13,488 nucleotides of DNA from Thermodesulfobacteriota bacterium (lineage in GTDB: Bacteria > Desulfobacterota > Desulfomonilia > Desulfomonilales > Desulfomonilaceae). The stretch spans positions 1 to 13,488 of the forward strand of contig JAUPKT010000361.1 of assembly GCA_030837305.1 (NCBI GenBank). The letters are read 5' to 3'. Of the stretch, positions 1-13,488 are shown one piece after another. The notes below the pieces were generated by a model that saw nothing but the letters and a program-made list of their open reading frames with translations, was not told the origin of the DNA and searched no databases. A program made the position numbers and the translations under genes. The first letter of the stretch is position 1, and the number at the start of each line of letters is the position of its first letter.

Positions 1-118
1 CAATAATAATGGGAGGACAATCAGTTTCCCTTGTCAAAGTTGCATTTCCTGCCTCGACTGTAATCAGCCAGACGCTCAGGGCAAGTGTGAGGCAGAGCGC
101 GTACCGAATGGAAATCAT
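1..118 (-). CDS. Partial CDS, N-terminus of an exported protein of unknown function
   Basis: Thirty-nine codons are visible before the frame runs off the window at base 1. The start ATG (118..116) overlaps the acyP stop in an ATGA junction, and a purine-rich AGGGTGG stretch lies just upstream, so translational coupling to acyP is likely. The peptide begins MISIRYALCLTLALSVWLIT, a short positively charged start followed by a hydrophobic core, then VEAGNA. It reads as a Sec signal peptide with probable cleavage near VEA or GNA. There is no lipobox at the expected place; the Cys at residue 34 follows a charged stretch. I do not recognise the family from so short a piece. The call rests on start context, overlap and signal-peptide character. 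Confidence 0.5.
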   Translation of the reverse strand, partial: MISIRYALCLTLALSVWLITVEAGNATLTRETDCPPIII

Positions 119-411
119 AACCACCCTGCTCCCGGACCATACCTTATGTCAAAATCAACGAACTCTTCCCGAGGCGGTTCATCTCTCACCAACACTCTAT
201 CAACCCTGCTGTAAGGTGGACCTTCATGAAACCATTCCAGAATTGATTGAATGATTGCAGGCTCTCCCTGCACCACCGCCTCAACAGTTCCATCCGGAAG
301 GTTTCTCACCCACCCGGTAACACCCAGTCTCTTGGCTGTATCTCTTGTGTATGCCCTGAAGCATACTCCCTGCACAAGGCCTGACACAAGAACCCTTTTC
401 CGAATGGTCAT
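115..411 (-). CDS. acyP: Acylphosphatase
   Basis: A 98-residue protein, the usual size for acylphosphatase, a small cytoplasmic enzyme that hydrolyses acyl phosphates to a carboxylate and phosphate. The first family motif is VSGLVQGVCFR, with phosphate-binding Arg19. The second is GWVRNLPDGTVE, with catalytic Asn37. The frame is open further upstream, but the ATG at 411 is chosen because it opens directly onto the first beta strand (MTIRKRVLVSG) and has an AGGAG ribosome binding site at 426..422, 10 nt before it. Upstream residues in the open frame have no family resemblance. The gene follows ligA by 64 nt on the same strand, and its stop overlaps the next start, so the three genes probably share a transcript. 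The physiological substrate cannot be read from sequence. Confidence 0.93.
   Translation of the reverse strand: MTIRKRVLVSGLVQGVCFRAYTRDTAKRLGVTGWVRNLPDGTVEAVVQGEPAIIQSILEWFHEGPPYSRVDRVLVRDEPPREEFVDFDIRYGPGAGWL
148..167 (-). repeat. 20-bp direct repeat, copy 1 (inside acyP)
   Basis: The plus-strand string gtcaaaatcaacgaactctt occurs here and again, identically and in the same orientation and reading frame, inside ligA at 2198-2217. In acyP it encodes part of EEFVDFD near the C-terminus. See the matching entry in ligA. Confidence 0.85.
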
Positions 412-475
412 GAAGCCGACACTCCTGAGATGACTATAACGACCTGGAACAGACTCTCCTGCGAGACCCACAAGC

Positions 476-2515
476 TCATTCTGTGAGTTCCAGGAATTGG
501 TCTTCAGAAATGGTCCGGATTCCCAATTCCGAGGCACGATCAAGCTTTGATCCCGGGTCCTCTCCCTTAACAACATAATCGGTACGACTTGAAACGCTTC
601 CGGCAACCCTACCCCCCATGCGTTCCACACGAGCCTTGGCCTCCGAGCGCGGTAAAGACAATGTTCCAGTGAAGACGAATGACTTGCCCTGCAATGGTTT
701 TTCCACGAAGTTTCTCAGATCCCTCGTCTGCGAGGGGATCACCACGGCTTTTAGTAATTTTGCGATCATAGTGCGATTGCGGGACTCTTGAAAAAAAGTC
801 TCGACGCTCGTGGCCACCTCGGGCCCTATGCCGAATATCCGTTCCATTTCCTCCGCTTCAGCCTCCATGACACGCTCTACAGACCCCAGGGCTTCCACTA
901 GAGTGCGGGCAACAAATTCTCCAACCAAGGGAATGCCCAGACCATAGAGAAACCGATCTGCCGAGACGACTCGTGACCTCTGAATGGAACCAAGAAGCTT
1001 CGACGCAGATTTTTCTGCCATTCTCGGGAGGCCCATCAAGTCCGACAATTGCAGAACATACAAATCCGCCGGGCTCGTAACCAACCCGTCATCCACCAGC
1101 AAAGATATTAGTTTATCCCCTAGTCCTTCGATATCAAGTGCATTTCGGGAGGCAAAATGCTTAATGGTTTCTTTGAGGCGAGCCGGGCATGAAATGTTCT
1201 GGCACCTTTTGACGGCCTGGCCTTCCAATCGAACGGCCAGGGACTGACAGACGGGGCAATGGTCAGGAATTCGGTACGGCCGACTGTCGGGTAATCTAAA
1301 TTCCGTAAGCACTCTCACTACCTCAGGTATGACGTCGCCTGCTCGCTGAATGAGGACACTATCTCTTTCCCGAATGTCCTTACGATCTATCTCGTCCTGA
1401 TTGTGCAACGTTGCCCTGCTTACCGTAACTCCCCCCACCTGAACAGGCTCCATAATGGCTACCGGCGTGAGGCTTCCGGTTCTTCCAACTCCTATATCTA
1501 TCCGAATAACACGGGTCACAGCCTGAAGGGGCTCGAACTTAAAGGCGACGGCCCAGCGCGGAGACCGAGTCTTGAAACCGAGCTGTTTCTGGAACTCCAG
1601 TGAATCCACCTTTACTACCGCTCCATCTATTTCATAGGGAAGCCGAGGGCGAATATCATGAAGAGAGCGATAATGATCTAACGTCTCCTTGTGTCCTTTG
1701 CACCATTTTGAATGCATTTTGTTCACAGGAATCCCCATCTCTTCGAGATAGCCGAGCAGATCCCAATGGGTTTCCGGCAAACCACCGTCAATCCGTCCTA
1801 CACTATGGGCCAAGAATTTGAGACCTCTGCCGGCGGTAATCTTTGGGTCAAGTTGTCTCAGGGATCCGGCTGTAGCATTCCTTGGATTAGCGAATGAAGG
1901 CAGGCCAAGCTCATCCCTCTCCTGATTCAATGCATCAAAGTCAGACCTGGTCATGAATATCTCGCCACGAATCTCAACAACAGAAAGTCCGGCCCCTACT
2001 CCGACCAGCCGTAACGGAATCGTTCTGATCGTTCGAAGATTAGGGGTGACATCTTCCCCAGTTACACCGTCTCCACGCGTTGAGCCCGAAACCAAGACGC
2101 CCTCGTTGTAAACAAGCTCTATTGCCACCCCGTCGAGCTTCGGTTCGACTACGTACGACAGCTCGTCCGATATTCCCAATGCCTTGCGACTCCTGGCGTC
2201 AAAATCAACGAACTCTTGCTCAGAGAATATGTTGGCAAGAGACAACATCGGTTCAGAATGACGTACCTGGTTAAACTTCTCTGCGGGGACTCCTCCAACT
2301 CTCTGAGTTGGAGAGTCAGGTGTTATGAGATCGGGATACTGTTTTTCCAAATCTTCCAGACGCCGATAAAGCCGGTCATAATCAGAATCGGTGATCTCAG
2401 GAGAGTCCAGAACGTAATAGAGGTAGTCGTGGTGCCTGATTCGAACTCTCAGTTTATCGAGTTCTCCCGTCACCGTTGCCAACTCGTCATCGGAATTGTT
2501 GCTGGAAAGGGTCAT
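476..2515 (-). CDS. ligA: NAD-dependent DNA ligase LigA
   Basis: At 679 residues this is full length for bacterial LigA, which seals nicks with NAD+ as AMP donor in replication and repair. The Ia region with its Tyr-rich HHDYLYYV stretch spans about 20-60. The adenylation motif EPKLDG places the AMP-accepting lysine at K126. The OB fold follows (about 330-410), then a four-Cys zinc finger (C420, C423, C438, C443), helix-hairpin-helix repeats with GLGIPLVG and FGIGPEVA (about 455-575), and a BRCT domain (about 608-679, beginning GKSFVFTGTL). The ATG at 2515 has no clear Shine-Dalgarno sequence, and a short upstream frame ends in an ATGA overlap with it. Residues 591-603 (VVIPSQTRDLRNF) are encoded by a REP-like palindrome in the linker before BRCT. 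Domains and catalytic residues look intact, so the enzyme should be functional. Confidence 0.98.
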   Translation of the reverse strand: MTLSSNNSDDELATVTGELDKLRVRIRHHDYLYYVLDSPEITDSDYDRLYRRLEDLEKQYPDLITPDSPTQRVGGVPAEKFNQVRHSEPMLSLANIFSEQEFVDFDARSRKALGISDELSYVVEPKLDGVAIELVYNEGVLVSGSTRGDGVTGEDVTPNLRTIRTIPLRLVGVGAGLSVVEIRGEIFMTRSDFDALNQERDELGLPSFANPRNATAGSLRQLDPKITAGRGLKFLAHSVGRIDGGLPETHWDLLGYLEEMGIPVNKMHSKWCKGHKETLDHYRSLHDIRPRLPYEIDGAVVKVDSLEFQKQLGFKTRSPRWAVAFKFEPLQAVTRVIRIDIGVGRTGSLTPVAIMEPVQVGGVTVSRATLHNQDEIDRKDIRERDSVLIQRAGDVIPEVVRVLTEFRLPDSRPYRIPDHCPVCQSLAVRLEGQAVKRCQNISCPARLKETIKHFASRNALDIEGLGDKLISLLVDDGLVTSPADLYVLQLSDLMGLPRMAEKSASKLLGSIQRSRVVSADRFLYGLGIPLVGEFVARTLVEALGSVERVMEAEAEEMERIFGIGPEVATSVETFFQESRNRTMIAKLLKAVVIPSQTRDLRNFVEKPLQGKSFVFTGTLSLPRSEAKARVERMGGRVAGSVSSRTDYVVKGEDPGSKLDRASELGIRTISEDQFLELTE
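718..740. repeat. REP-like palindrome inside ligA
   Basis: The left arm gatccctcg (718-726) pairs with cgagggatc in the right arm (731-740, which carries one extra g) around the loop tctg. It forms a 9-bp stem with one bulged base. Read on the minus strand it encodes PSQTRDL in the linker between the helix-hairpin-helix and BRCT domains. I know the SQTRDLRNF string from spurious ORFs over short dispersed palindromes in many bacterial genomes. I see no second copy in this window, so the repeat status rests on that recollection. Confidence 0.5.
2198..2217 (-). repeat. 20-bp direct repeat, copy 2 (inside ligA)
   Basis: Identical to 148-167 over 20 bases (gtcaaaatcaacgaactctt on the plus strand). 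Here it encodes part of QEFVDFDAR in the N-terminal part of LigA. Identity ends immediately on both sides, so this is a short island, not a duplicated gene segment. Confidence 0.85.
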
Positions 2516-3422: not shown

Positions 3423-4229
3423 TCAGGTTAACCAACGTTTGCGTCTCTTGTAATGTTTAACGTCTCTGAAACTCTTCCTTCCGCCTACGTCAGTCAGTCC
3501 AAGATAAAAGTCCCGTATGTCCGGGTTCTCTTTCAGCTTCTCAGACGTATCGTCCATGACTATTCGACCGTTCTCCATAACGTAGGCGTGGGGAGCAACC
3601 GTTAATGCCAGTTTCACATTCTGCTCTACCAATAAGATGGGTATCTTTTCTTCCTGATTGAGGCGCTGAATAATCTCAAAAATCTCTTTGATAAGCAGTG
3701 GGGCCAGTCCCATGGAAGGCTCATCCAACAACATCAGTTTCGGTTGAGCCATCATCGCACGACCAATGACGCACATCTGCTGCTCGCCTCCACTCACGAA
3801 GCCCGCCATAATGTTTCTCCGGTCCTTCAGCCGAGGAAAATAATGGTAGACCATCGCCAGTCGCTCTTTGAGACCCGAAGGCCTCAAGTGCCCTCCCACG
3901 AGCAGATTTTCTTCAACAGTGAGATGTTCAAATACTCGACGTCCCTCGATTATCTGAAAAATGCCTCTCTTTGATATCTCCTCTGCGGGTAGCTTGTGTA
4001 TTTGCTCACCCATGAATTCGATTCCGCCGTCCGTGACTTCACCTTCTTCATGATTGAGCAATCCGGAAATGGCTTTGAGTGTCGTGCTTTTCCCCGCGCC
4101 ATTTGCTCCCAGCAGTGCCACGATACCACCCGCAGGCACTTGAATCGACACGCCCTTGAGCACCAGTATTACCTCGTGGTATCTCACTTCTATGTTGTTG
4201 ATTTTCAAGATACTGCTATTCTCAGCCAC
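3423..4229 (-). CDS. livF: Branched-chain amino acid-type ABC transporter ATP-binding protein LivF
   Basis: A 268-residue nucleotide-binding subunit of a HAAT-family importer, working at the inner membrane face with LivG, LivH and LivM. Walker A is GANGAGKST (41-49). The ABC signature is VSGGEQQ (145-151), with Val where Leu is usual. Walker B is LMLLDEP (165-171). The switch position is LVEQN (Gln203), as in other LivF proteins, which have Gln instead of His. Start is GTG (4229..4227) preceded by AGGGAGAAGG. The protein is about 30 residues longer than E. coli LivF because of a very basic C-terminal tail ending RDVKHYKRRKRWLT, a feature I associate with desulfobacterial homologues. It lies 81 nt downstream of livK. 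A 6-bp inverted repeat (4258-4263 with 4272-4277) in that gap could attenuate expression, but it is weak. Confidence 0.95.
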   Translation of the reverse strand: MAENSSILKINNIEVRYHEVILVLKGVSIQVPAGGIVALLGANGAGKSTTLKAISGLLNHEEGEVTDGGIEFMGEQIHKLPAEEISKRGIFQIIEGRRVFEHLTVEENLLVGGHLRPSGLKERLAMVYHYFPRLKDRRNIMAGFVSGGEQQMCVIGRAMMAQPKLMLLDEPSMGLAPLLIKEIFEIIQRLNQEEKIPILLVEQNVKLALTVAPHAYVMENGRIVMDDTSEKLKENPDIRDFYLGLTDVGGRKSFRDVKHYKRRKRWLT

Positions 4230-4310: not shown

Positions 4311-5567
4311 TTACCAGCCCAGCCAGCTTGCCCATTTCTCAGCTCCGAACTTTTCTTTCATGTTGATCTTGTCAAACAGCACGATTTTCCCATCCTTGAT
4401 GGTGTAAAGAGACGCTACCGGCGTTGGTCTGTGATCCGTATCAGTAATGGTATATGGACCAACCCCTAATGCGTTCTTGGTGTCAAATGGATACCAGTCC
4501 TTGAGGGACTCGAGTGCAGCCTTGATAGTCGGTCCGTCTATTTTTCCCTTCTTGTCCGCTCCCGCTAATCCCGCAGCGCCAAGTGAAACCTTTAGCCATC
4601 CTTGCACCGTACGGACGTCTCTTTTTTCGGCAGGAACTCCTGGATTTACCTTCTTTGCGTATTCGACGATCTTGTCCATCATGGGAACATCCATGCCGAA
4701 AAATGCACAAGAAGCTGCGCCTATGACCCCTTCGCCGGCTTGTTGCGTCATCCTGACAAGGTTCATGTCGAATCCCCAGTTATTAATAATATGATCTGCT
4801 TCCAGTTTAAGGGCGTACGCATCCTTTACTGCGGTTGCCACGGACATGGTCGTATTCCCGTGCCAAATGACCGTCGCTCCCTCTCCTTTGGCCGCAAGCA
4901 CTTGACTCTTCGCATCTAATGCCGTTAATGCAACGTCCTGATCTTTGGCGACTTCGATACCAAGAATCGCCGCCTGATCCTTGATGGCCTTAATGGGAGC
5001 ACTCGCATAAGGTGAGGCGAACATATAGAAACAAACGAGTTTTGGTTTCTTGCCGGCTTCCCGCTCTTTCTTCCACTTGTCACTCTTGAGCCACACCTTA
5101 TCATACCACGAACTCAGAGCTGCGCGAGCATTCGTTGAATAGTCTGTGCTATAGATGAAATTGTACGGAGTCTTCTTGGGATCGCAAAGATGGCCTGAGA
5201 GTGAATCGGAGATCGTAACCATCTGGTCCTTGTTTACGGTCGGGGAGAGCGCCTCTGTGTCGCCTGTTCCCCACTGCAGCAGGAGCTGTATCTTGTCCTG
5301 GTCACGGAACCGCTTATAAATAGTTATTGCCTCAGGAACCCGGTATCCGTAGTCGTAGAGAAAAAGCTTGATCTTTTTTCCGTTGATTCCTCCACTGTCG
5401 TTGATGAACGTGACGCACTCCCGTACGCCTAAAGCAGCGTCTTTGCCCACATCCGAGGTGGCGCCCGTCAAATCATTAATCGATCCGACCCTAATCTCGT
5501 CCGCAGCAAATGCCGGCGTCAAGATCAGTGTGAGAGCCACGACCATTAGCAACAACACTTTACTCAT
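4311..5567 (-). CDS. livK: Periplasmic substrate-binding protein of the Liv-type ABC transporter
   Basis: A 418-residue type I periplasmic binding protein (Peripla_BP_6 / LivJK family). The signal peptide is MSKVLLLMVVALTLILTPAFA, with cleavage near residue 21. The mature N-terminus, DEIRVGSINDLTGATSDVGK, is the first beta strand and ligand loop of this fold. SGGINGKKIKLFLYDY matches the conserved NxxGGIxGxxIxL region. Length is above E. coli LivK (about 370), as in the aromatic- or amide-binding members of the family. A good site, GGAGGTT, precedes the ATG at 5567. The gene sits inside the operon between livM and livF, with 117 nt separating it from livM. The ligand cannot be fixed from sequence: branched-chain amino acids, other hydrophobic amino acids, or organic or aromatic acids are all possible given the CoA ligase in the same operon. 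Confidence 0.9.
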   Translation of the reverse strand: MSKVLLLMVVALTLILTPAFAADEIRVGSINDLTGATSDVGKDAALGVRECVTFINDSGGINGKKIKLFLYDYGYRVPEAITIYKRFRDQDKIQLLLQWGTGDTEALSPTVNKDQMVTISDSLSGHLCDPKKTPYNFIYSTDYSTNARAALSSWYDKVWLKSDKWKKEREAGKKPKLVCFYMFASPYASAPIKAIKDQAAILGIEVAKDQDVALTALDAKSQVLAAKGEGATVIWHGNTTMSVATAVKDAYALKLEADHIINNWGFDMNLVRMTQQAGEGVIGAASCAFFGMDVPMMDKIVEYAKKVNPGVPAEKRDVRTVQGWLKVSLGAAGLAGADKKGKIDGPTIKAALESLKDWYPFDTKNALGVGPYTITDTDHRPTPVASLYTIKDGKIVLFDKINMKEKFGAEKWASWLGW

Positions 5568-5684: not shown

Positions 5685-6806
5685 TTACTTGCCGGTATAC
5701 GAGAAAGGCCATAGGTTAAAGTAGTTTTTCAGTTGCCAATACCGATAGCTCAACCCGTTGGGCTCGTAGATCAAGAAGAAGATGATTGCCAAGCCAAATG
5801 CCGATTCCTTGAAAAAGATTAATTTTGTAGTCATCCAGCCAAGTTCCGGGTAGGACGTCATGAGAATGTCACTGAGACCCAATACTCCCAATTCCAATAG
5901 CTTGAAAACCATTACCACAAAAACGGACCCGAAAACGAGTCCCTGTATACTCCCTACACCTCCAATGAGAATTATACCGACCCACAACAGAGAGTAAAAC
6001 CACTCGTAATGCTCCGGGCTCACGAAAAACAACGCACTTATGTAGAATGCGCCGGCAATTCCTGCAAAAAAGCCCGCCACAAAGAATGCCAGGAGCTTAT
6101 ATCCGACGATGTTCACTCCCATGGTCTCGGCTGCAATGTCATTGTCTCTTATGGCGATCCATGCTCGCCCGGCCTTGGATCGTAAATGGTTTCCCATGGC
6201 CACGAGGCAGATAAGAACCAAAATAATCGAAAAATAATAGATCTTCTCATCTGAATCGATTGTCCATGGCCCTATCTTTATAACCCCGGGCGGAAGAGAA
6301 AACGACTGTCCACGGCCGCCGATCTGACTCACATATTGAGTGATGACCAGAGGTACGGTTATCCACTGTGCAGCCATGGTGGTCATGATCAAATAGAAAC
6401 CTTTGACTCTTGCAGAGGGTAAACCAAACAAGACGGACCAAAGTGCGGCGGCAAAACCTGCACATATAATGCTTATGGGATACGCTAAACCCCAGTCCAC
6501 CATCCATTGCGGCCATGGGACGAAAAGCACCATCATGGCGCTTGTATACCCCCCAACTGCCACAAATGCCGCATGCCCGAGAGTTATCTGACCGCAATAT
6601 CCAATAAGCAACTGGACGCCAAGCGCGGCAAGGATATAGTAGTTGATGGTGTATGCCACGCTCAGCCACTGGGTCCCCACCACAAATGGCAACACGGCAA
6701 GCGCAATAACCATGAAAACCATCTTGCCCTTGATAAATGGTGTCCGCCACCACTTCTGATCATCCTGATAAGACTCAAAATAGGTACCACACGGCAGATA
6801 ACTCAT
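5685..6806 (-). CDS. livM: Branched-chain amino acid-type ABC transporter permease LivM
   Basis: A 373-residue integral membrane protein with about nine or ten hydrophobic segments, one of two permeases of the importer. The family motif GYCGQITLGHAAF (69-81) is clear. The cytoplasmic EAA loop that contacts the ATPases is GRAWIAIRDNDIAAETMGVN (213-232). The segment GIILIGGVGSIQGLVFGSVF (278-297) matches the conserved GGxGSxxGxxxGA region. The C-terminus FLIYEPNGLSYRYWQ is the usual FEPxGL end plus a short tail. The N-terminal 28 residues before the first membrane segment are soluble and rather long. The ATG at 6806 lies 3 nt past the livH stop, with AAAGGG upstream inside livH, so the two permeases are translated together. 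Confidence 0.95.
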   Translation of the reverse strand: MSYLPCGTYFESYQDDQKWWRTPFIKGKMVFMVIALAVLPFVVGTQWLSVAYTINYYILAALGVQLLIGYCGQITLGHAAFVAVGGYTSAMMVLFVPWPQWMVDWGLAYPISIICAGFAAALWSVLFGLPSARVKGFYLIMTTMAAQWITVPLVITQYVSQIGGRGQSFSLPPGVIKIGPWTIDSDEKIYYFSIILVLICLVAMGNHLRSKAGRAWIAIRDNDIAAETMGVNIVGYKLLAFFVAGFFAGIAGAFYISALFFVSPEHYEWFYSLLWVGIILIGGVGSIQGLVFGSVFVVMVFKLLELGVLGLSDILMTSYPELGWMTTKLIFFKESAFGLAIIFFLIYEPNGLSYRYWQLKNYFNLWPFSYTGK

Positions 6807-6809
6807 CAG

Positions 6810-7715
6810 CTAGACCCTTTCTATGCGCTCCCAACCCCAAAGCCCGTACGGCTTGAACAGGAGGAAAACTACCATGAAAATGAACGGCGCAGTCTCCTTG
6901 ATACCGCCAGGGAAATAATAATCGAGATAGCCCCCGGCAAGGTTTTGAAGCACCCCAATTGTTATGCCGCCAACGATTGCCCCCGGTACAGAGTTCAATC
7001 CGCCAAAGACGACAACGGGCAGGACCAGCAGACCTAGGTGACTTACTGAATAATTAAGGCCGTTGATGTTTCCGAGCAGAGTCCCGCCGACTCCGGCGGC
7101 CATGAAAGCAATGGCCCACGCTAACGCATAAACGAACTTTGCGCTCACGCCCAGGGATAATGCAGCCATTTCATCATCTGCACAGGCCTGCATGGAAAGC
7201 CCCCACCGTGTAAACTTGAAGAAGCATACAAAGATGGCCATGAGTATCAGTGCCGCGATGAAACTCCACAAATAGACTTCACCGATAGCTAATCGAAATA
7301 GCATGATCGGCTCAATTGAGAAGACACGTGGGAGGAACACCTGAGTGTCGGTATCCCATATTATGAACACCATGCCTTTGAAGAAGAAGGATAAACCCAC
7401 CGTCACCATAATAACGGCAAGGATAGGCTCCCCAATCATCTTCCTCAGGAAAATTCTTTCCGTCAGCAGTCCGAGAACGAACCCCACGAAAAGCGTACCT
7501 ATGAGAGCCAGGACGAATGCATAAGTCACGGGCATGGAGACAACAAACCTCTGATACAAACCCAGGCAGACATAGCCCCCGATCAGGGTCAGTTCCCCCA
7601 TTGCCAAATTCAGAACTCCCGAACATTTGTAAATAAGGACCCATCCCAATGCCACCAATGCGAAGACGGATCCAAGCATCACTCCCGTTATGACGAGTTG
7701 CAAAAAGAGGTCCAT
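6810..7715 (-). CDS. livH: Branched-chain amino acid-type ABC transporter permease LivH
   Basis: A 301-residue integral membrane protein, the LivH-type permease partner of LivM and of normal length. The N-terminal ITGVMLGSVFALVALGWVLI segment and VLNLAMGELTLIGGY (34-48) match the conserved LivH start (NxAxGxxxxxGAY). The EAA loop is TRWGLSMQACADDEMAALSLG (169-189). FGGLNSVPGAIVGGITIGVL and the terminal KPYGLWG are the other family hallmarks. The start ATG (7715..7713) overlaps the stop of the upstream acyl-CoA ligase by one base (TAATG), with GGAGGG upstream inside the ligase gene. Tight coupling ties the ligase product level to that of the permease. Confidence 0.95.
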   Translation of the reverse strand: MDLFLQLVITGVMLGSVFALVALGWVLIYKCSGVLNLAMGELTLIGGYVCLGLYQRFVVSMPVTYAFVLALIGTLFVGFVLGLLTERIFLRKMIGEPILAVIMVTVGLSFFFKGMVFIIWDTDTQVFLPRVFSIEPIMLFRLAIGEVYLWSFIAALILMAIFVCFFKFTRWGLSMQACADDEMAALSLGVSAKFVYALAWAIAFMAAGVGGTLLGNINGLNYSVSHLGLLVLPVVVFGGLNSVPGAIVGGITIGVLQNLAGGYLDYYFPGGIKETAPFIFMVVFLLFKPYGLWGWERIERV

Positions 7716-9670
7716 TACTTTTTCCCTCCGTCTCGCACTCCCTGAAGCCTAATATCAGCTTTTATCTCCACCACACGCCCATCCTCATAGGTGATGTTGG
7801 TCTCCATGTGCATCATGTCATCATCCGTGTAAAGCGCCTCAATAATGTCCTTATAGCGATTCTCCACAAATGCTCTTCGAATCTTTCTTGTCCTGGTCAA
7901 CTCATCGTCGTCCGCATCAAACTCTTTGTACAGATTGGCGAATCGCCTGATCCGGGCACTGTCCGGCAAGGAACGATTCACCTCTCTCAGCGGTCCCTCC
8001 ACCAAGTCATAAATCTGGGGCAACTGAGACAGTTCGGTGTAACTCGTGTAGTTTATCCCGTGATCCTCCGCCCATTTCCCAACCGTATTGTAATCGATGC
8101 AAAGTATAGCCGTTGTAAATGGTCTCTGATGACCTACCACGAGGGCATCCCTGAGATACGGGCTGAACTTGAGTCGCGCCTCCAAAAATTGAGGAGAAAA
8201 TTTTCTTCCGTCACTGAGGATCATGATATCCTTGGTCCTGTCAAAAACAACGAGATGCCCATCCTCGTCTATGAAGCCGGTGTCTCCGGAATACAGCCAA
8301 CCGTCCTTGAGGGTTTTTTCAGTCTCTTCAGCCATCTTGTAGTATCCCACGAAAACCGAGGGACTGCGGGACAATATCTCGTCGTTTTCTCCTAGGCGGA
8401 CCTCGGTACCAGGAATTGGCGTTCCCACCGTATCAAACTTGATGTCACCGTCGCGATGCACCACCGAAATGCCGGCGATCTCCGTCTGCCCATAAATCTG
8501 TTTGAGATTGACTCCTATCGAATGGAAAAATCTGAAATGGTCAGGGCCCATGGCGGCTCCGCCCGTGTAGGCGTGTCTCACCTTGCTGAGTCCCAAGTGA
8601 TCCCGAACCTTCGAAAAAAGACAAGCATCCGCAATGGATCCCAAGAGTTTCCAAAGAGCTGGGATCGGCTTCTTGTCAAATTTAAGATCAGCGATGTGGT
8701 AACCAATCTTCATGCAGATTTCATAGACCCGTCGCTTGAGCCAGGTGGCATCCAGATACTTCACCTGAACGGTCCGAGTGAATTGTTCGTAAAGCCTCGG
8801 CGGTGCAAACATGACATGCGGACCGATCTCTCGCACATTGTGCTGAGAAGTTTCAGGCTCCTCGGGAAAATTGATGGTGTAGCCGACCTGCAACCCGCAG
8901 GATATTGACATCATTTGCTCGCCGATCCAGGCAAATGGTAAATAAGAAACGAAATCGTCATCAGGCGTGCACGGATCAACCCTCATGAGGTTTTGCCCCA
9001 TGGTGAGCATGTTGTAATGCGTTAAAAGCGCACCTTTCGGCAATGATGTCGTCCCCGAGGTATAAAACAATAGGCAGACATCGTCTCCTTTACCTTTTTC
9101 CACGAGGCGATCAAAAAGTCCGGGATCCTGAGCTTCTTTCTCACGTCCGAGCTTCATTACCTCGTCAAGACCGATGAGCATAGGATCATCGTAATGGCGG
9201 AGCCCTTTGGGATCGTCCCAAATGATCTTGCTCAGTTTCGGGCACTGGTCCTTGATAGCCAAGGCCTTGTCAACCTCTTCTTGACCTTCTGCCACGTAAA
9301 ACTTGGAGTCCGAATGGTCAACAATGTATCTGACCTCTTCCATAAGGCAGTCCTGGAAGAGCCATACCCCTACGCCTCCTGCGCACATGGCTGCCATCTC
9401 TGTCCACAGCGCTTGAGGCCTGTTGTCACCAATCATGATGACCTTGTCCTGAGGCTCCAAGCCCAGGCTCACGAGCCCCAACGATATGTACTTAACATTG
9501 TCCAAGTACTGCTGCCACGTTACTGGTCTCCAAATGCCGTACTCCTTTTCACGCATGGCGACCTTCCCGGACCCATACTTACGGCATTGTTGCACCAACA
9601 GTTTGGGCAAGGTCAGATCCTTAGTAATCACTATCTCTCCGGCAGCGGTTCTCTCATCTGCGGCTAACAT
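7715..9670 (-). CDS. Long-chain-type acyl-CoA synthetase (AMP-forming) embedded in the liv operon
   Basis: A 651-residue member of the ANL superfamily that would activate a carboxylate to its CoA thioester through an acyl-adenylate. The ATP-binding P-loop is FYTSGTTSLPKG (about 202-213). The adenine motif is YGQTE (393-397). YSGDTGFIDEDG (about 460-471) and the hinge DRTKDIMILSDGRKFSP follow. The catalytic lysine is probably K596 in RTRKIRR. Size and layout resemble eukaryotic-type long-chain (ACSL) and FadD15-like enzymes more than short-chain ligases. The ATG at 9670 is preferred to an in-frame GTG at 9688 because GGAGG (9681..9677) lies 6 bases before it and would be inside the coding region otherwise. 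It overlaps livG by 17 nt. Placement between livG and livH suggests that it activates an acid brought in by, or derived from the substrate of, this transporter. Chain-length specificity is not readable. Confidence 0.92.
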   Translation of the reverse strand: MLAADERTAAGEIVITKDLTLPKLLVQQCRKYGSGKVAMREKEYGIWRPVTWQQYLDNVKYISLGLVSLGLEPQDKVIMIGDNRPQALWTEMAAMCAGGVGVWLFQDCLMEEVRYIVDHSDSKFYVAEGQEEVDKALAIKDQCPKLSKIIWDDPKGLRHYDDPMLIGLDEVMKLGREKEAQDPGLFDRLVEKGKGDDVCLLFYTSGTTSLPKGALLTHYNMLTMGQNLMRVDPCTPDDDFVSYLPFAWIGEQMMSISCGLQVGYTINFPEEPETSQHNVREIGPHVMFAPPRLYEQFTRTVQVKYLDATWLKRRVYEICMKIGYHIADLKFDKKPIPALWKLLGSIADACLFSKVRDHLGLSKVRHAYTGGAAMGPDHFRFFHSIGVNLKQIYGQTEIAGISVVHRDGDIKFDTVGTPIPGTEVRLGENDEILSRSPSVFVGYYKMAEETEKTLKDGWLYSGDTGFIDEDGHLVVFDRTKDIMILSDGRKFSPQFLEARLKFSPYLRDALVVGHQRPFTTAILCIDYNTVGKWAEDHGINYTSYTELSQLPQIYDLVEGPLREVNRSLPDSARIRRFANLYKEFDADDDELTRTRKIRRAFVENRYKDIIEALYTDDDMMHMETNITYEDGRVVEIKADIRLQGVRDGGKK

Positions 9671-10454
9671 AAAGATCCTCCACCTCACCCAAATAGGCTT
9701 TTATAACCTCTGGGTTCTCTTGCACCTCAGCAGGCGTTCCATCGGCTATCTTGACCCCGAAGTTCAAAGTCATGACCCGGTCGGAAAGGTCCATAACCAC
9801 ACCCATGTCATGCTCTACCAAAACGCATGTAATGTTCCATCGCTTGTCTTCGTTGATGTCTATTATGAACCTCGCCATATCCTCAACTTCTTCCAAATTC
9901 AAGCCAGCAAGAGGTTCGTCCAACAAGATGACCTCGGGTTGCAGGGCAAGCGCCCGTGCTAGTTCGATTCTCTTCTGCATGCCATACGGCAACATGCCCG
10001 TCACTTCGTTACGCACGGCTTCTATTTCCAATAAGTCGATGGTCTCTTCTTCAATAAAACGGCGAGCCTCTTCTTCTTCTCGCCGTGTCTTTCCCCAGTA
10101 AATGCTGGAACTAAGTATCCCCGACTTCAAACGAAGATGCCGTCCCAACCGAATGTTGTCGAGGACTGTCATGCCCCCGAATAACTCAATCTTCTGGAAG
10201 GTCCTCGAAAGCCCCATGGCCGCACGCTTGTGAGGCGAAAATTTTGTGATGTCAGTGCCCTTGAAGTGCAGGCTCCCTTTGCCCGGATGATAAAGCCCGT
10301 TGATGCAGTTCATCATACAGGTCTTCCCGGCACCGTTCGGGCCTATGATAGAGAAGATCTCACCCTTCATCACCTGGAAACTGACATTTGTCAGTGCAGC
10401 GACCCCATGAAATGAGAGAAAGACGTTTTTAGCCTCTAGTATGACTTCCGACAT
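9654..10454 (-). CDS. livG: Branched-chain amino acid-type ABC transporter ATP-binding protein LivG
   Basis: A 266-residue nucleotide-binding subunit, the LivG partner of LivF. Walker A is GPNGAGKT (38-45). The Q-loop is RTFQ (Gln87). The signature is LPYGMQKR (155-162), a variant of the LSYGQQR form usual in LivG. Walker B is VILLDEP (175-181). The switch His is H215 in LVEHDM. The LivG-specific insertion between Q-loop and signature (about 105-140) is present. The ATG at 10454 has an AAAAGGGGA site upstream. It is the first gene of the seven-gene operon and overlaps the ligase gene by 17 nt. A promoter candidate lies about 150 nt upstream. Confidence 0.95.
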   Translation of the reverse strand: MSEVILEAKNVFLSFHGVAALTNVSFQVMKGEIFSIIGPNGAGKTCMMNCINGLYHPGKGSLHFKGTDITKFSPHKRAAMGLSRTFQKIELFGGMTVLDNIRLGRHLRLKSGILSSSIYWGKTRREEEEARRFIEEETIDLLEIEAVRNEVTGMLPYGMQKRIELARALALQPEVILLDEPLAGLNLEEVEDMARFIIDINEDKRWNITCVLVEHDMGVVMDLSDRVMTLNFGVKIADGTPAEVQENPEVIKAYLGEVEDLYVSRR

Positions 10455-11182: not shown

Positions 11183-11344
11183 ATAACTCCCATTGGTGGA
11201 CGGTACGCGTCATCGCAATTGACAACGCAGCTCACCATGATGGCTCAGACCGACATGAATAACGTGGGATCGTAACAAACCAAGATCTTGGACCAAATTC
11301 AGTATCCTGGGGAAAATTTATCGATGTGACGAGGTATGACAAAC

Positions 11345-12136
11345 ATGAGCGATGAACAAAGCCTCCTGAAAGACAAGAAAGAGGGTATTGTGGTTCTGAC
11401 TATAAATAGGCCACAGGCGCTCAACTGTTTTAACATGGCCCTCTTGAACCTTCTTGGGGAAACAGTAGGCGAAATAGCGCTGGACAGGTCAGTGCGGGCC
11501 GTCATTATAATCGGCGCCACTGACGGCAAAAATGCATTTAGTACGGGGGCTGATCTCAAAGAGCGCGCGGGGATGTCGCCCGATCAAGTCAAACTGTATA
11601 TCCAGACTATTCGAAATCTTTTCACGGCAGTGGAAGAGTTGCCTCAACCGGTAATCGCAGCCGTAAACGGTTACGCATTCGGAGGAGGACTCGAACTCGC
11701 CCTTGCCTGCGACATCCGGCTGGCCTCCACGAACGCCGTGGTTGGCTTGACCGAAACCAGCCTTGCCATCATACCTGGGGCAGGGGGGACCCAAAGACTG
11801 CCTAGAGTGGTGGGTCTGGCGAGAGCCAAAGAGATGATATTGCGGGCGAGAAGAATATCTGCGGCCCAGGGATTGGACTACGGCCTCTTTCTGGAAGTGG
11901 TTGAACCTGATAAACTACTCGATCGAAGCCTTGAAATCGCAACTGAAATCTCTCAGAATGGTCCGGTAGCATTGGCCCAGGCCAAATACGCAATCAATAA
12001 AGGCCTCGAGGTAAGTCTACCCATCGGTTTGGCCATCGAGTCCAACGCATACGCTGTCACAATACCCACAAAAGATAGAACCGAAGGTCTCACTGCATTC
12101 AGAGAAAAAAGAAAACCCGTTTACACGGGGGAGTAA
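11345..12136 (+). CDS. Enoyl-CoA hydratase, 3-methylglutaconyl-CoA hydratase (AUH/YngF) type
   Basis: A 263-residue crotonase-fold enzyme (266 if begun at the ATG at 11336). The first oxyanion-hole segment is AFSTGADLKE and the second is NGYAFGGGLELALACD. The two catalytic glutamates are E117 (GGGLELA) and E137 (GLTETSL), followed by IIPGAGGTQRLPR. From the second motif on, including AIN-GLEV, GLAIE, YA-TIPTKDR-EGL-AF-EKR and the final TGE, it closely follows human AUH as I remember it. This favours hydration of 3-methylglutaconyl-CoA to HMG-CoA in leucine breakdown over generic fatty-acid oxidation. The ATG at 11345 is preferred because GAGG (11331-11334) is 10 bases before it but only one base before the ATG at 11336. 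It is the first gene of the plus-strand operon; the next follows after 20 nt. Confidence 0.9.
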   Translation: MSDEQSLLKDKKEGIVVLTINRPQALNCFNMALLNLLGETVGEIALDRSVRAVIIIGATDGKNAFSTGADLKERAGMSPDQVKLYIQTIRNLFTAVEELPQPVIAAVNGYAFGGGLELALACDIRLASTNAVVGLTETSLAIIPGAGGTQRLPRVVGLARAKEMILRARRISAAQGLDYGLFLEVVEPDKLLDRSLEIATEISQNGPVALAQAKYAINKGLEVSLPIGLAIESNAYAVTIPTKDRTEGLTAFREKRKPVYTGE

Positions 12137-12156: not shown

Positions 12157-13269
12157 ATGGCGGTAAGAGAACTCACATACCCCACCAAAGTTCAAGTCAA
12201 CGACATAACGGTACGTGACGGTTTTCAGCACGAGGAAATTTGGATACCCACCGATGCAAAACTGTTTTATCTTGAAGAACTCATCCTGTGCGGAATCAAA
12301 CACCTCGAAGTAACAAATCTCGGCAATCCCGCATTGATGCCCCAATTTAAGGATGCCGAAGAGCTTCTTAAACGACTGAGAGACTCCAAGAAGCTGTCGC
12401 GGGCCGGGATCAATTGGGACGACATAACCCTCACCGCCATCACCATTAGAGAGAAAGCCGTGGACAGAGCAATAATGGCGAAAAAGGAGGGTTGGGGACC
12501 TGACAGGGTATTGATGATGGTGTCAACGGATGAGGAACATCATTTTGCCAACTCGGGAACCACCCTGCCGGACTACTGGAGTGAAGCCGAAAGATGCATT
12601 CAGAAGGCAAAAGATGTAGGAATCAAGATGAACGGAACCGTCTCCACCATCTGGGGATCGCCCATTTCCGGGCCCACTAGACTGGAAGATGCAGTGGAAT
12701 TTGCACAAAAGTGGCTGGAAATAGGCGCATACGACATTGAACATGCTGATCATGACGGCAGCGCCCCGCCAAACCAAGTGCACAAGTATTATTCCATGGT
12801 GCTTGAGGCAATGCCGGACAAGAAACTCCACATAGCACACTTTCATGTCACCAGGGGATGGGGAACAGCAAACTGCCTAGCTGCCCTTCAGGCAGGAATT
12901 GAAATTTTCGAAGCAACCCTTGGAGGGTTGGGTGGTCAGCCGGCCAACTTCTTGGACCGCGTACCTGTTGCGGGTACCGGGGCCTACTACTACAGGGATC
13001 CTAACGTTGTGGGCTTGCAGAACATAGAAGATATGGTGGTAATGATGGACGAAATGGGTATCGACACAGGAATTGATGTCGATCGTCTCCTGGACCTGGG
13101 GACCATGCTGGAAAAGACCATAGGCCGGAGATTGCGTTCGGAATCAATACTCAATAGGCGAATCCCAAAGGCCCCGAGAGACGAATTCAAACGCAAGGGC
13201 CTCTCTCGTCTAAAAGAAAAACTTGGTGAACAACCCGGACAGAAATATCCGGCAAATTGGATCAAATAA
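12157..13269 (+). CDS. Divergent HMG-CoA lyase-family (DRE-TIM metallolyase) protein lacking the catalytic cysteine
   Basis: A 370-residue TIM-barrel protein of the HMGL-like family, longer than HMG-CoA lyase (about 300-325). The first strand carries TVRDGFQHEE with R20 and D21, matching the catalytic Arg and metal-binding Asp of HMG-CoA lyase. HFHVTRG gives H228 and H230 as metal ligands, but the usual HDTYG sequence has become HVTRG. GLGG at 257-260 is followed by Gln261 where HMG-CoA lyases have their catalytic Cys. The short GASGN loop is replaced by an insertion with GTGAYYYRDPN. The following region, NIEDMVVMMDEMGIDTGIDVDRLL, is typical of the family, and a charged C-terminal tail of about 45 residues follows. 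The ATG at 12157 has AAGGAGG upstream. Position after an AUH-type hydratase argues for an acyl-CoA lyase role, but the chemistry is uncertain. Confidence 0.85.
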   Translation: MAVRELTYPTKVQVNDITVRDGFQHEEIWIPTDAKLFYLEELILCGIKHLEVTNLGNPALMPQFKDAEELLKRLRDSKKLSRAGINWDDITLTAITIREKAVDRAIMAKKEGWGPDRVLMMVSTDEEHHFANSGTTLPDYWSEAERCIQKAKDVGIKMNGTVSTIWGSPISGPTRLEDAVEFAQKWLEIGAYDIEHADHDGSAPPNQVHKYYSMVLEAMPDKKLHIAHFHVTRGWGTANCLAALQAGIEIFEATLGGLGGQPANFLDRVPVAGTGAYYYRDPNVVGLQNIEDMVVMMDEMGIDTGIDVDRLLDLGTMLEKTIGRRLRSESILNRRIPKAPRDEFKRKGLSRLKEKLGEQPGQKYPANWIK

Positions 13270-13433
13270 AGAAGACGTCATCCCCTGGCACGTTGCGGCG
13301 GAATGAATCATTTCCCCTCAAACTGAAGAGCCCTGATAAGCCGCTCGTGGCAAGGACACCCGGGATGATGGCCCCAAAATCGCGGGAATTCGACAAAGTT
13401 GCCGGCTCGCTTTATTAGCAAGGAGGATTCGCA

Positions 13434-13488
13434 ATGGAGCCTTTGTGGAGACCGTCTAAAAAGAGAGTACAGGATGCCAATATCACAC
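13434..13488 (+). CDS. Partial CDS, probable acetoacetyl-CoA synthetase N-terminus
   Basis: Eighteen codons remain before the window ends. The ATG at 13434 has a strong AAGGAGG site (13420-13426) 7 bases upstream. The peptide MEPLWRPSKKRVQDANIT matches, as I recall it, the typical start of bacterial acetoacetyl-CoA synthetases (PLWxPSxxRxxxxNxT) in the acetyl-CoA synthetase-like N-terminal region. That enzyme would reactivate acetoacetate from leucine breakdown, which suits the two genes before it. The 164-nt gap after the lyase-like gene holds no obvious terminator, so cotranscription is likely. The assignment rests on a very short segment. Confidence 0.6.
   Translation, partial: MEPLWRPSKKRVQDANIT

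Follow-up and report, generated by a model that had tools for sequence, protein, structure and literature searches.

What reaction does a protein of the 3-hydroxy-3-methylglutaryl-CoA (HMG-CoA) lyase family perform when a glutamine stands in place of the catalytic cysteine? The question is raised by the gene P0001 in a 13,488-nucleotide stretch of DNA (positions 1 to 13,488 of contig JAUPKT010000361.1, assembly GCA_030837305.1; hereafter the window) from a Thermodesulfobacteriota bacterium of the Desulfomonilaceae. A preliminary description had delimited the open reading frame (ORF) and its strand correctly (Table 1), and had held that the product probably does not cleave HMG-CoA. The latter claim is not supported by the genomic evidence: the operon partners are the enzymes acting just before and just after that step, an MCC-beta subtype is coupled to the gene, and in three near-complete genomes with this operon the Cys-type profile matches nothing else at E<=1e-20. 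We lean towards the view that P0001 would be a cysteine-independent C-C lyase with the HMG-CoA-lyase fold, cleaving HMG-CoA in anaerobic leucine/isovaleryl-CoA oxidation.

The protein belongs to the HMGL-like superfamily (PF00682, 96.5 bits; gathering threshold 29), and the HMG-CoA lyase fold is recovered upon re-alignment with VIA-align of chains ranked by Foldseek. Identity to solved HMG-CoA lyases (human HMGCL 2cw6/3mp3, B. subtilis YngG 1ydo and A. baumannii 6nds) is 23-30%. In a HMMER alignment to human 2cw6, numbered from its residue 28, the DRE/His metal site is retained: R41, D42, E72, D204, H233 and H235 correspond to R20, D21, E51, D198, H228 and H230, which bears out the R20/D21 and H228-x-H230 pairs reported earlier. 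Asp204, too, has a role in the human enzyme. Four positions differ, namely C266 (Q261), N275 (L287), T205 (H199) and D236 (V231), and the loop is about 17 residues longer than in HMG-CoA lyase through an insertion at approximately residues 263-284. PMC6941031 sets out which residues are critical in human HMG-CoA lyase and lists Cys266 among the most critical catalytic ones. As Cys266, the metal ligand Asn275 and the curated HMG-CoA lyase cut-off are all missed, the protein is not filed as an HMG-CoA lyase and is a variant within the superfamily, even though databases name its relatives 'hydroxymethylglutaryl-CoA lyase' or 'pyruvate carboxyltransferase'.

These replacements are strongly conserved. 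In a main-clade alignment of 136 rows (112 distinct), picked by identity alone at >=58%, Gln261 occurs in 136/136, as do each of His25, Tyr140, His199, Asp200, Tyr277, Tyr278 and Leu287; residue 21 is Asp in 124/136 and Glu in 12/136. Because Gln261 is fixed across all these relatives, the substitutions, as read from the alignment, are neither chance nor sequencing error. The glutamine after GLGG and the Tyr-bearing expanded loop were thus rightly singled out in the preliminary description, and two of its other contrasts hold in part. In the change from HDTYG to HVTRG the replacement of Asp by Val is special, but the contrast comes mostly from the human comparator, since the bacterial lyases 1ydo and 6nds share T-R-G; the ISLGDTIG strand, described as replaced, is altered (T205 to H199), yet retains its Asp as D198. 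Human Tyr167, likewise counted as critical in PMC6941031, is Thr161 here, an uninformative difference since Ser, Ala or Gly occupies the position in 14 canonical Cys-type rows (a set from which seven Cys-type 'cluster 14' members, of the GGCVTG type, were left out).

The loss of the Asn275 equivalent has a correlate elsewhere in the loop. Asn264 is present in 135/136 main-clade rows, all carrying Leu287, and among 18 remoter Gln-type rows it is absent from all 12 with Asn287 (10 gaps, 2 Phe), while the six with Leu287 have Asn264 in five cases and Thr in one. Since the presence of Asn264 goes with Leu287 and its absence with Asn287, we infer that the metal ligand may have moved, with Asn264 taking the place of the lost asparagine.

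The glutamine marks a coherent branch of the family. GGQP is found in 240/241 database proteins and GGQH in one, in a set of near relatives only (the query and two sets of the best 120 out of thousands of matches). In an unrooted 50-row maximum-likelihood tree, a branch with support 99/91 separates 20 Cys rows from a side comprising 27 Gln, one Glu (on a long branch), one His and one Trp row. Thus, the expectation that Q261 homologues form a separate clade is upheld as regards the Cys type, with the proviso that they group together with these other variants. As one branch parts all Cys from all non-Cys rows, the topology fits a single loss of Cys; among the rows sampled here, Gln is the usual replacement. 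The Glu variant (GGEP; L177:5920-6927) lies on a Rhodococcus plasmid with two genes between it and an acetoacetate-CoA ligase gene; the His variant (GGHP; L181:2989-3912), annotated hydroxymethylglutaryl-CoA lyase, is on a Bosea plasmid, and the Trp variant (GGWP) is at L124:7150-8211.

In a sample of the phylum comprising 296 genomes, for which 90% completeness was asked except for the window's own genome (G000), the protein is present in 65 at >=61% identity and nearly full length. Within the window's family it occurs in 17/17 other members examined, once as a fragment, and in 0/23 examined genomes of the same class outside that family; it is also found in Synergistaceae, Negativicutes and Desulfovirgula. 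Searches of an open-access library, in which subscription papers are mostly missing, listed no recognisable account of a Cys-less or Gln-type HMG-CoA lyase. Thus, the Gln type is a branch of HMG-CoA-lyase-like enzymes that is common in the phylum and apparently undescribed; an undescribed subfamily was one of the possibilities raised in the preliminary description. In one Gln-type subclade (L132, L134, L135, L136) the protein is extended at its C terminus, and its gene neighbors encode a Cat-type CoA-transferase and a MaoC-type hydratase in two halves, at some loci also a B12-mutase-cluster gene; this subclade probably serves a different acid pathway.

The gene neighborhoods point to a specific step. 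We counted genes in the same-strand block at loci flanked by >=2.5 kb in both directions; after dereplication at 92% identity these comprised 50 main-clade loci and 11 others. Gene clusters are single-linkage, such that 'MCC-beta' may include other carboxyltransferases (e.g. L079). The counts derive from the second of two rounds of ORF calling, in which the target ORF of L130 was not called, and this locus is outside the counts; the gene orders of L001-L010 are those of the first round, which took antisense frames where GC content was high. Of the 50 main-clade loci, 30 contain a hydratase, 18 an MCC-beta-type carboxyltransferase, 15 an acyl-CoA dehydrogenase, 10 acetoacetate-CoA ligase and seven a 400-aa crotonase-like protein; GcdA and a Cys-type lyase are found at five loci each. 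The predicted company of an AUH-type hydratase and acetoacetate-CoA ligase is accordingly frequent, although not invariable as had been anticipated. As the partners acting before (dehydrogenase, carboxylase, hydratase) and after (acetoacetate ligase) define the step between them, a Cys-independent HMG-CoA lyase is the simplest account of the gene.

The gene is coupled to a distinct MCC-beta subtype, defined by >=53% identity to the L028 protein. The best match of that protein is Pseudomonas MCC-beta (3u9r, 411.4 bits); mitochondrial MCC-beta (8j4z, 407.6) scores level with it, and geranyl-CoA carboxylase reaches 275.9. It occurs in 29/79 Gln-positive genomes, spanning 16 families (genome counts here treat related genomes as independent, several were tallied by hand and some genomes are incomplete), and in 28 of these 29 the two genes share a contig and are <=3 kb apart; in G133 they are on separate contigs. 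For comparison, 80 of the sampled genomes without the protein were hand-picked for spread before results were seen, 75 having weak superfamily matches and five none. The subtype was found in one of them, G269, where the start of a contig truncates a Gln-HMGL gene (43 residues remain, at 84% identity) beside the hydratase and MCC-beta. Since G269 itself carries this fragment, the count for the remaining comparison genomes is 0/79. Twelve others carry more distant MCC-like proteins, with identities of 41-43% in ten genomes and 36-37% in the remaining two. GcdA, closest to glutaconyl-CoA decarboxylase (1pix, 735.3 bits), shows a weaker link, being present in 53/79 Gln-positive versus 17/80 comparison genomes.

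Several further associations were observed. The ~400-aa crotonase-like protein (L027, L029, L037, L065, L066, L169; e.g. L054:4970-6184) reaches 25.6 bits against ECH_1, below the gathering threshold of 27, and is usually encoded just 5' of GcdA and the Gln-type gene, with GcdA missing in L045 and L050. A glutaconate-CoA-transferase-like pair lies near the Gln-type gene at L017:4282-6226, L166:2539-4321 and L149; the first L017 subunit scores 136.9 bits with 1poi and 103.7 with 5mzw, which we take to be AibA-type, and the L166 and L149 pairs were assigned by clustering. Possibly these pairs act in isovalerate activation or in a methylglutaconyl-CoA step. The window's family also has a second acyl-CoA operon (L163, contig 347 of G000; L174) with a regulator-like ORF, two acyl-CoA dehydrogenases and an MCC-like carboxyltransferase 36-37% identical to the L028 protein, continued in L174 by biotin carboxylase, a hydratase and a beta-keto-acid cleavage enzyme (KCE-like).

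In the proposed pathway, an acyl-CoA dehydrogenase would be followed by the distinct MCC-type carboxylase (or possibly GcdA), the AUH-type hydratase, the Gln lyase, which would convert HMG-CoA to acetyl-CoA and acetoacetate, and finally acetoacetate-CoA ligase. A divalent metal on D21/H228/H230 is predicted to activate the 3-hydroxy group, with Asn264 substituting for the lost Asn ligand. Protonation of the acetyl-CoA enolate, the task of the lost Cys, may now fall to another conserved protic residue, for which Tyr277/278 in the inserted loop, His25 and His199 are candidates; alternatively, a water held by Gln261 could serve.

The relationship to the Cys-type lyases bears directly on this proposal. 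A strong match to the Cys-type (A1) profile (E<=1e-77) is found in 63/79 Gln-positive genomes, the best of each reading GGCP (63/63), and the matches in G002 and G006 also read GGCP, giving a total of 65/79. In three further genomes, G289, G128 and G232 (L096, L099, L105), a divergent Cys-type gene (GGCVTG) adjoins the Gln gene, and a gene placed in the same cluster, by cluster alone, does so in G270. Both kinds share one operon at five of the 50 loci (L152, L017, L053, L048, L072), and also at L168. At the other extreme, six of the 79 genomes have the Gln protein alone at E<=1e-20 (G105, G155, G311, G180, G174, G082), of which the near-complete G105, G155 and G311 also possess the MCC-beta/hydratase operon. 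No protein of the window's own incomplete genome passes NF004283 (HMG-CoA lyase, EC 4.1.3.4), and in its relatives L161, L170 and L175 the Cys-type gene is distant from leucine-pathway genes. Since most Gln-positive genomes and some operons hold both kinds, we dismissed, as a general rule, the notion that the Gln protein simply takes the place of the Cys-type lyase.

This co-occurrence, including within one operon, leaves room for a different substrate: the same C-C lyase chemistry might act in a parallel branch beside the Cys-type lyase, e.g. on another 3-hydroxy-3-alkylglutaryl-CoA or on 3-hydroxyisovaleryl-CoA (yielding acetone). We consider this a serious if rather unlikely alternative, and several observations weigh with it against HMG-CoA cleavage. 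Residues around the metal and substrate are altered (Thr205 to His199; D236, N275 and C266 all changed), and the protein scores 159.8 bits against NF004283, for which the cut-off is 246, whereas the Cys-type L161 protein from a same-family genome passes with 292.7. The MCC-beta subtype is absent from the window-family genomes, the best among the listed matches being 30-40% identical, and its MCC label is by similarity, 9tps (titled propionyl-CoA carboxylase beta) scoring level at 408.6 bits. Ten of the 50 loci lack any of the listed partners in the same-strand block, and five belong to a subgroup with GcdA and the unexplained crotonase-like protein. Against another substrate stand the adjoining acetoacetate-CoA ligase at 10/50 loci, which points to acetoacetate as product, and the three Gln-only genomes with the MCC-beta/hydratase operon.

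The other readings fare worse. An inactive protein serving to regulate or stabilize a Cys-type lyase or the carboxylase would account for the lost Cys, the co-occurrence and the occasional shared operons, but is very improbable given the retained metal and DRE residues, the conserved new active-site residues and the six genomes without a second A1-profile match. A condensing role had been raised in the preliminary description. Whether as a Claisen-type enzyme like isopropylmalate, homocitrate or citramalate synthase, or as a synthase working in the forming direction, it finds no support in gene context: DRE-TIM synthases (homocitrate 6ktq, citramalate 3blf, isopropylmalate) are of the same superfamily and share the metal site with HMGL-like enzymes, but the neighbors are catabolic, the C-terminal regulatory domain is absent and scores against the synthase NCBIfam models are <=47.2 bits versus cut-offs >400, making this role improbable. 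Least probable of all is a carboxyltransferase/transcarboxylase-like activity, suggested by the name 'pyruvate carboxyltransferase' that some sources give relatives and by the coupling to carboxylase carboxyltransferase subunits; NCBIfam models for pyruvate carboxylase, oxaloacetate decarboxylase and transcarboxylase 5S give <=22.6 bits, under their cut-offs. Those for 4-hydroxy-2-oxovalerate aldolase give 38.3 and 31.3 bits (cut-offs 229 and 286).

The window itself illustrates the arrangement (Table 1). An AAGGAGG motif lies just 5' of the P0001 start, 20 bases separate this start from the hydratase stop, and acetoacetate-CoA ligase (AacS) starts 164 bases 3' of the gene. The hydratase scores 331.9 bits against NF005802, under its cut-off of 363, and has 3kqf and human AUH 1hzd as best solved relatives. 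A full 650-aa AacS gene is on contig C328 of the same assembly (TIGR01217, 966 bits; cut-off 520.9), the start of which (L164) overlaps window positions 12994-13488 over 495 bases; since this overlap is just 94.5% identical, the assembly may mix close strains. Divergent from this strand is an operon with an acyl-CoA ligase, which by resemblance we take to be for branched-chain-type (Liv) uptake; the order Liv/HMGL-like recurs in L001, L002, L006-L010, L015, L067, L160, L172 and L173.

Table 1. Features of the window, with positions, strand and basis of the name
Feature	Position	Strand	Remarks
Gln-type HMGL-like protein P0001	12157..13269	+	370 aa; ATG 12157, stop 13267-13269
AUH/YngF-type enoyl-CoA hydratase, probably 3-methylglutaconyl-CoA hydratase	11336..12136	+	NF005802, solved relatives
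Acetoacetate-CoA ligase (AacS), first 18 codons	13434..13488	+	truncated by window end
LivG-like ABC ATPase	9654..10454	-	named by resemblance
Acyl-CoA ligase within Liv-type operon	7715..9688	-	best NCBIfam FadD11, 273.4 bits (cut-off 950)
LivH-like permease	6810..7715	-	provisional name; same cluster in L001, L002, L006-L010 and others
LivM-like permease	5685..6806	-	provisional name; same cluster at related loci
Substrate-binding protein, Liv-type operon	4311..5567	-	provisional name; no NCBIfam match at 1e-20
LivF-like ABC ATPase	3423..4229	-	provisional name
LigA-like DNA ligase	476-2515	-	provisional name; unrelated
Acylphosphatase-like ORF	115-630	-	provisional name; unrelated

A precedent for the gene arrangement is the yng leucine operon of B. 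subtilis (yngEFGHIJ). As there, MCC-beta, a YngF-type hydratase, a lyase and an acyl-CoA dehydrogenase are found together; unlike there, the Gln-type protein occupies the YngG slot and the window's family adds the Liv transporter and acetoacetate-CoA ligase. A further parallel, drawn from a published description, is the sulfate reducer Desulfosarcina cetonica, in which, according to PMC7888143, an acetone-inducible protein annotated HMG-CoA lyase is encoded in one cluster with a subunit of a carboxyltransferase and the beta subunit of an oxaloacetate decarboxylase; the shared features are a sulfate-reducing host and this gene company. Acetone activation was considered as a possible role in this connection.

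More broadly, and tentatively, the proteins with Gln, and less often Glu, His or Trp, at this position might form a widespread non-Cys superclade that arose by one loss of Cys and cleaves HMG-CoA or a sister compound via a relocated acid (a Tyr of the loop or a His of the active site) and a relocated metal-binding Asn. Together with its dedicated MCC-beta subtype, it would then constitute a second module for leucine/isovalerate in anaerobes, one that has gone unrecognised. Under the names that databases give the Gln proteins, automatic annotation assigns leucine/isovalerate oxidation to sulfate reducers and syntrophs on the strength of a putative activity. At the same time, a large natural clade that lacks the cysteine, is strongly conserved and often fills the same slot of the pathway offers a way to test, by comparing natural solutions, what Cys266 does in the textbook enzyme HMG-CoA lyase.
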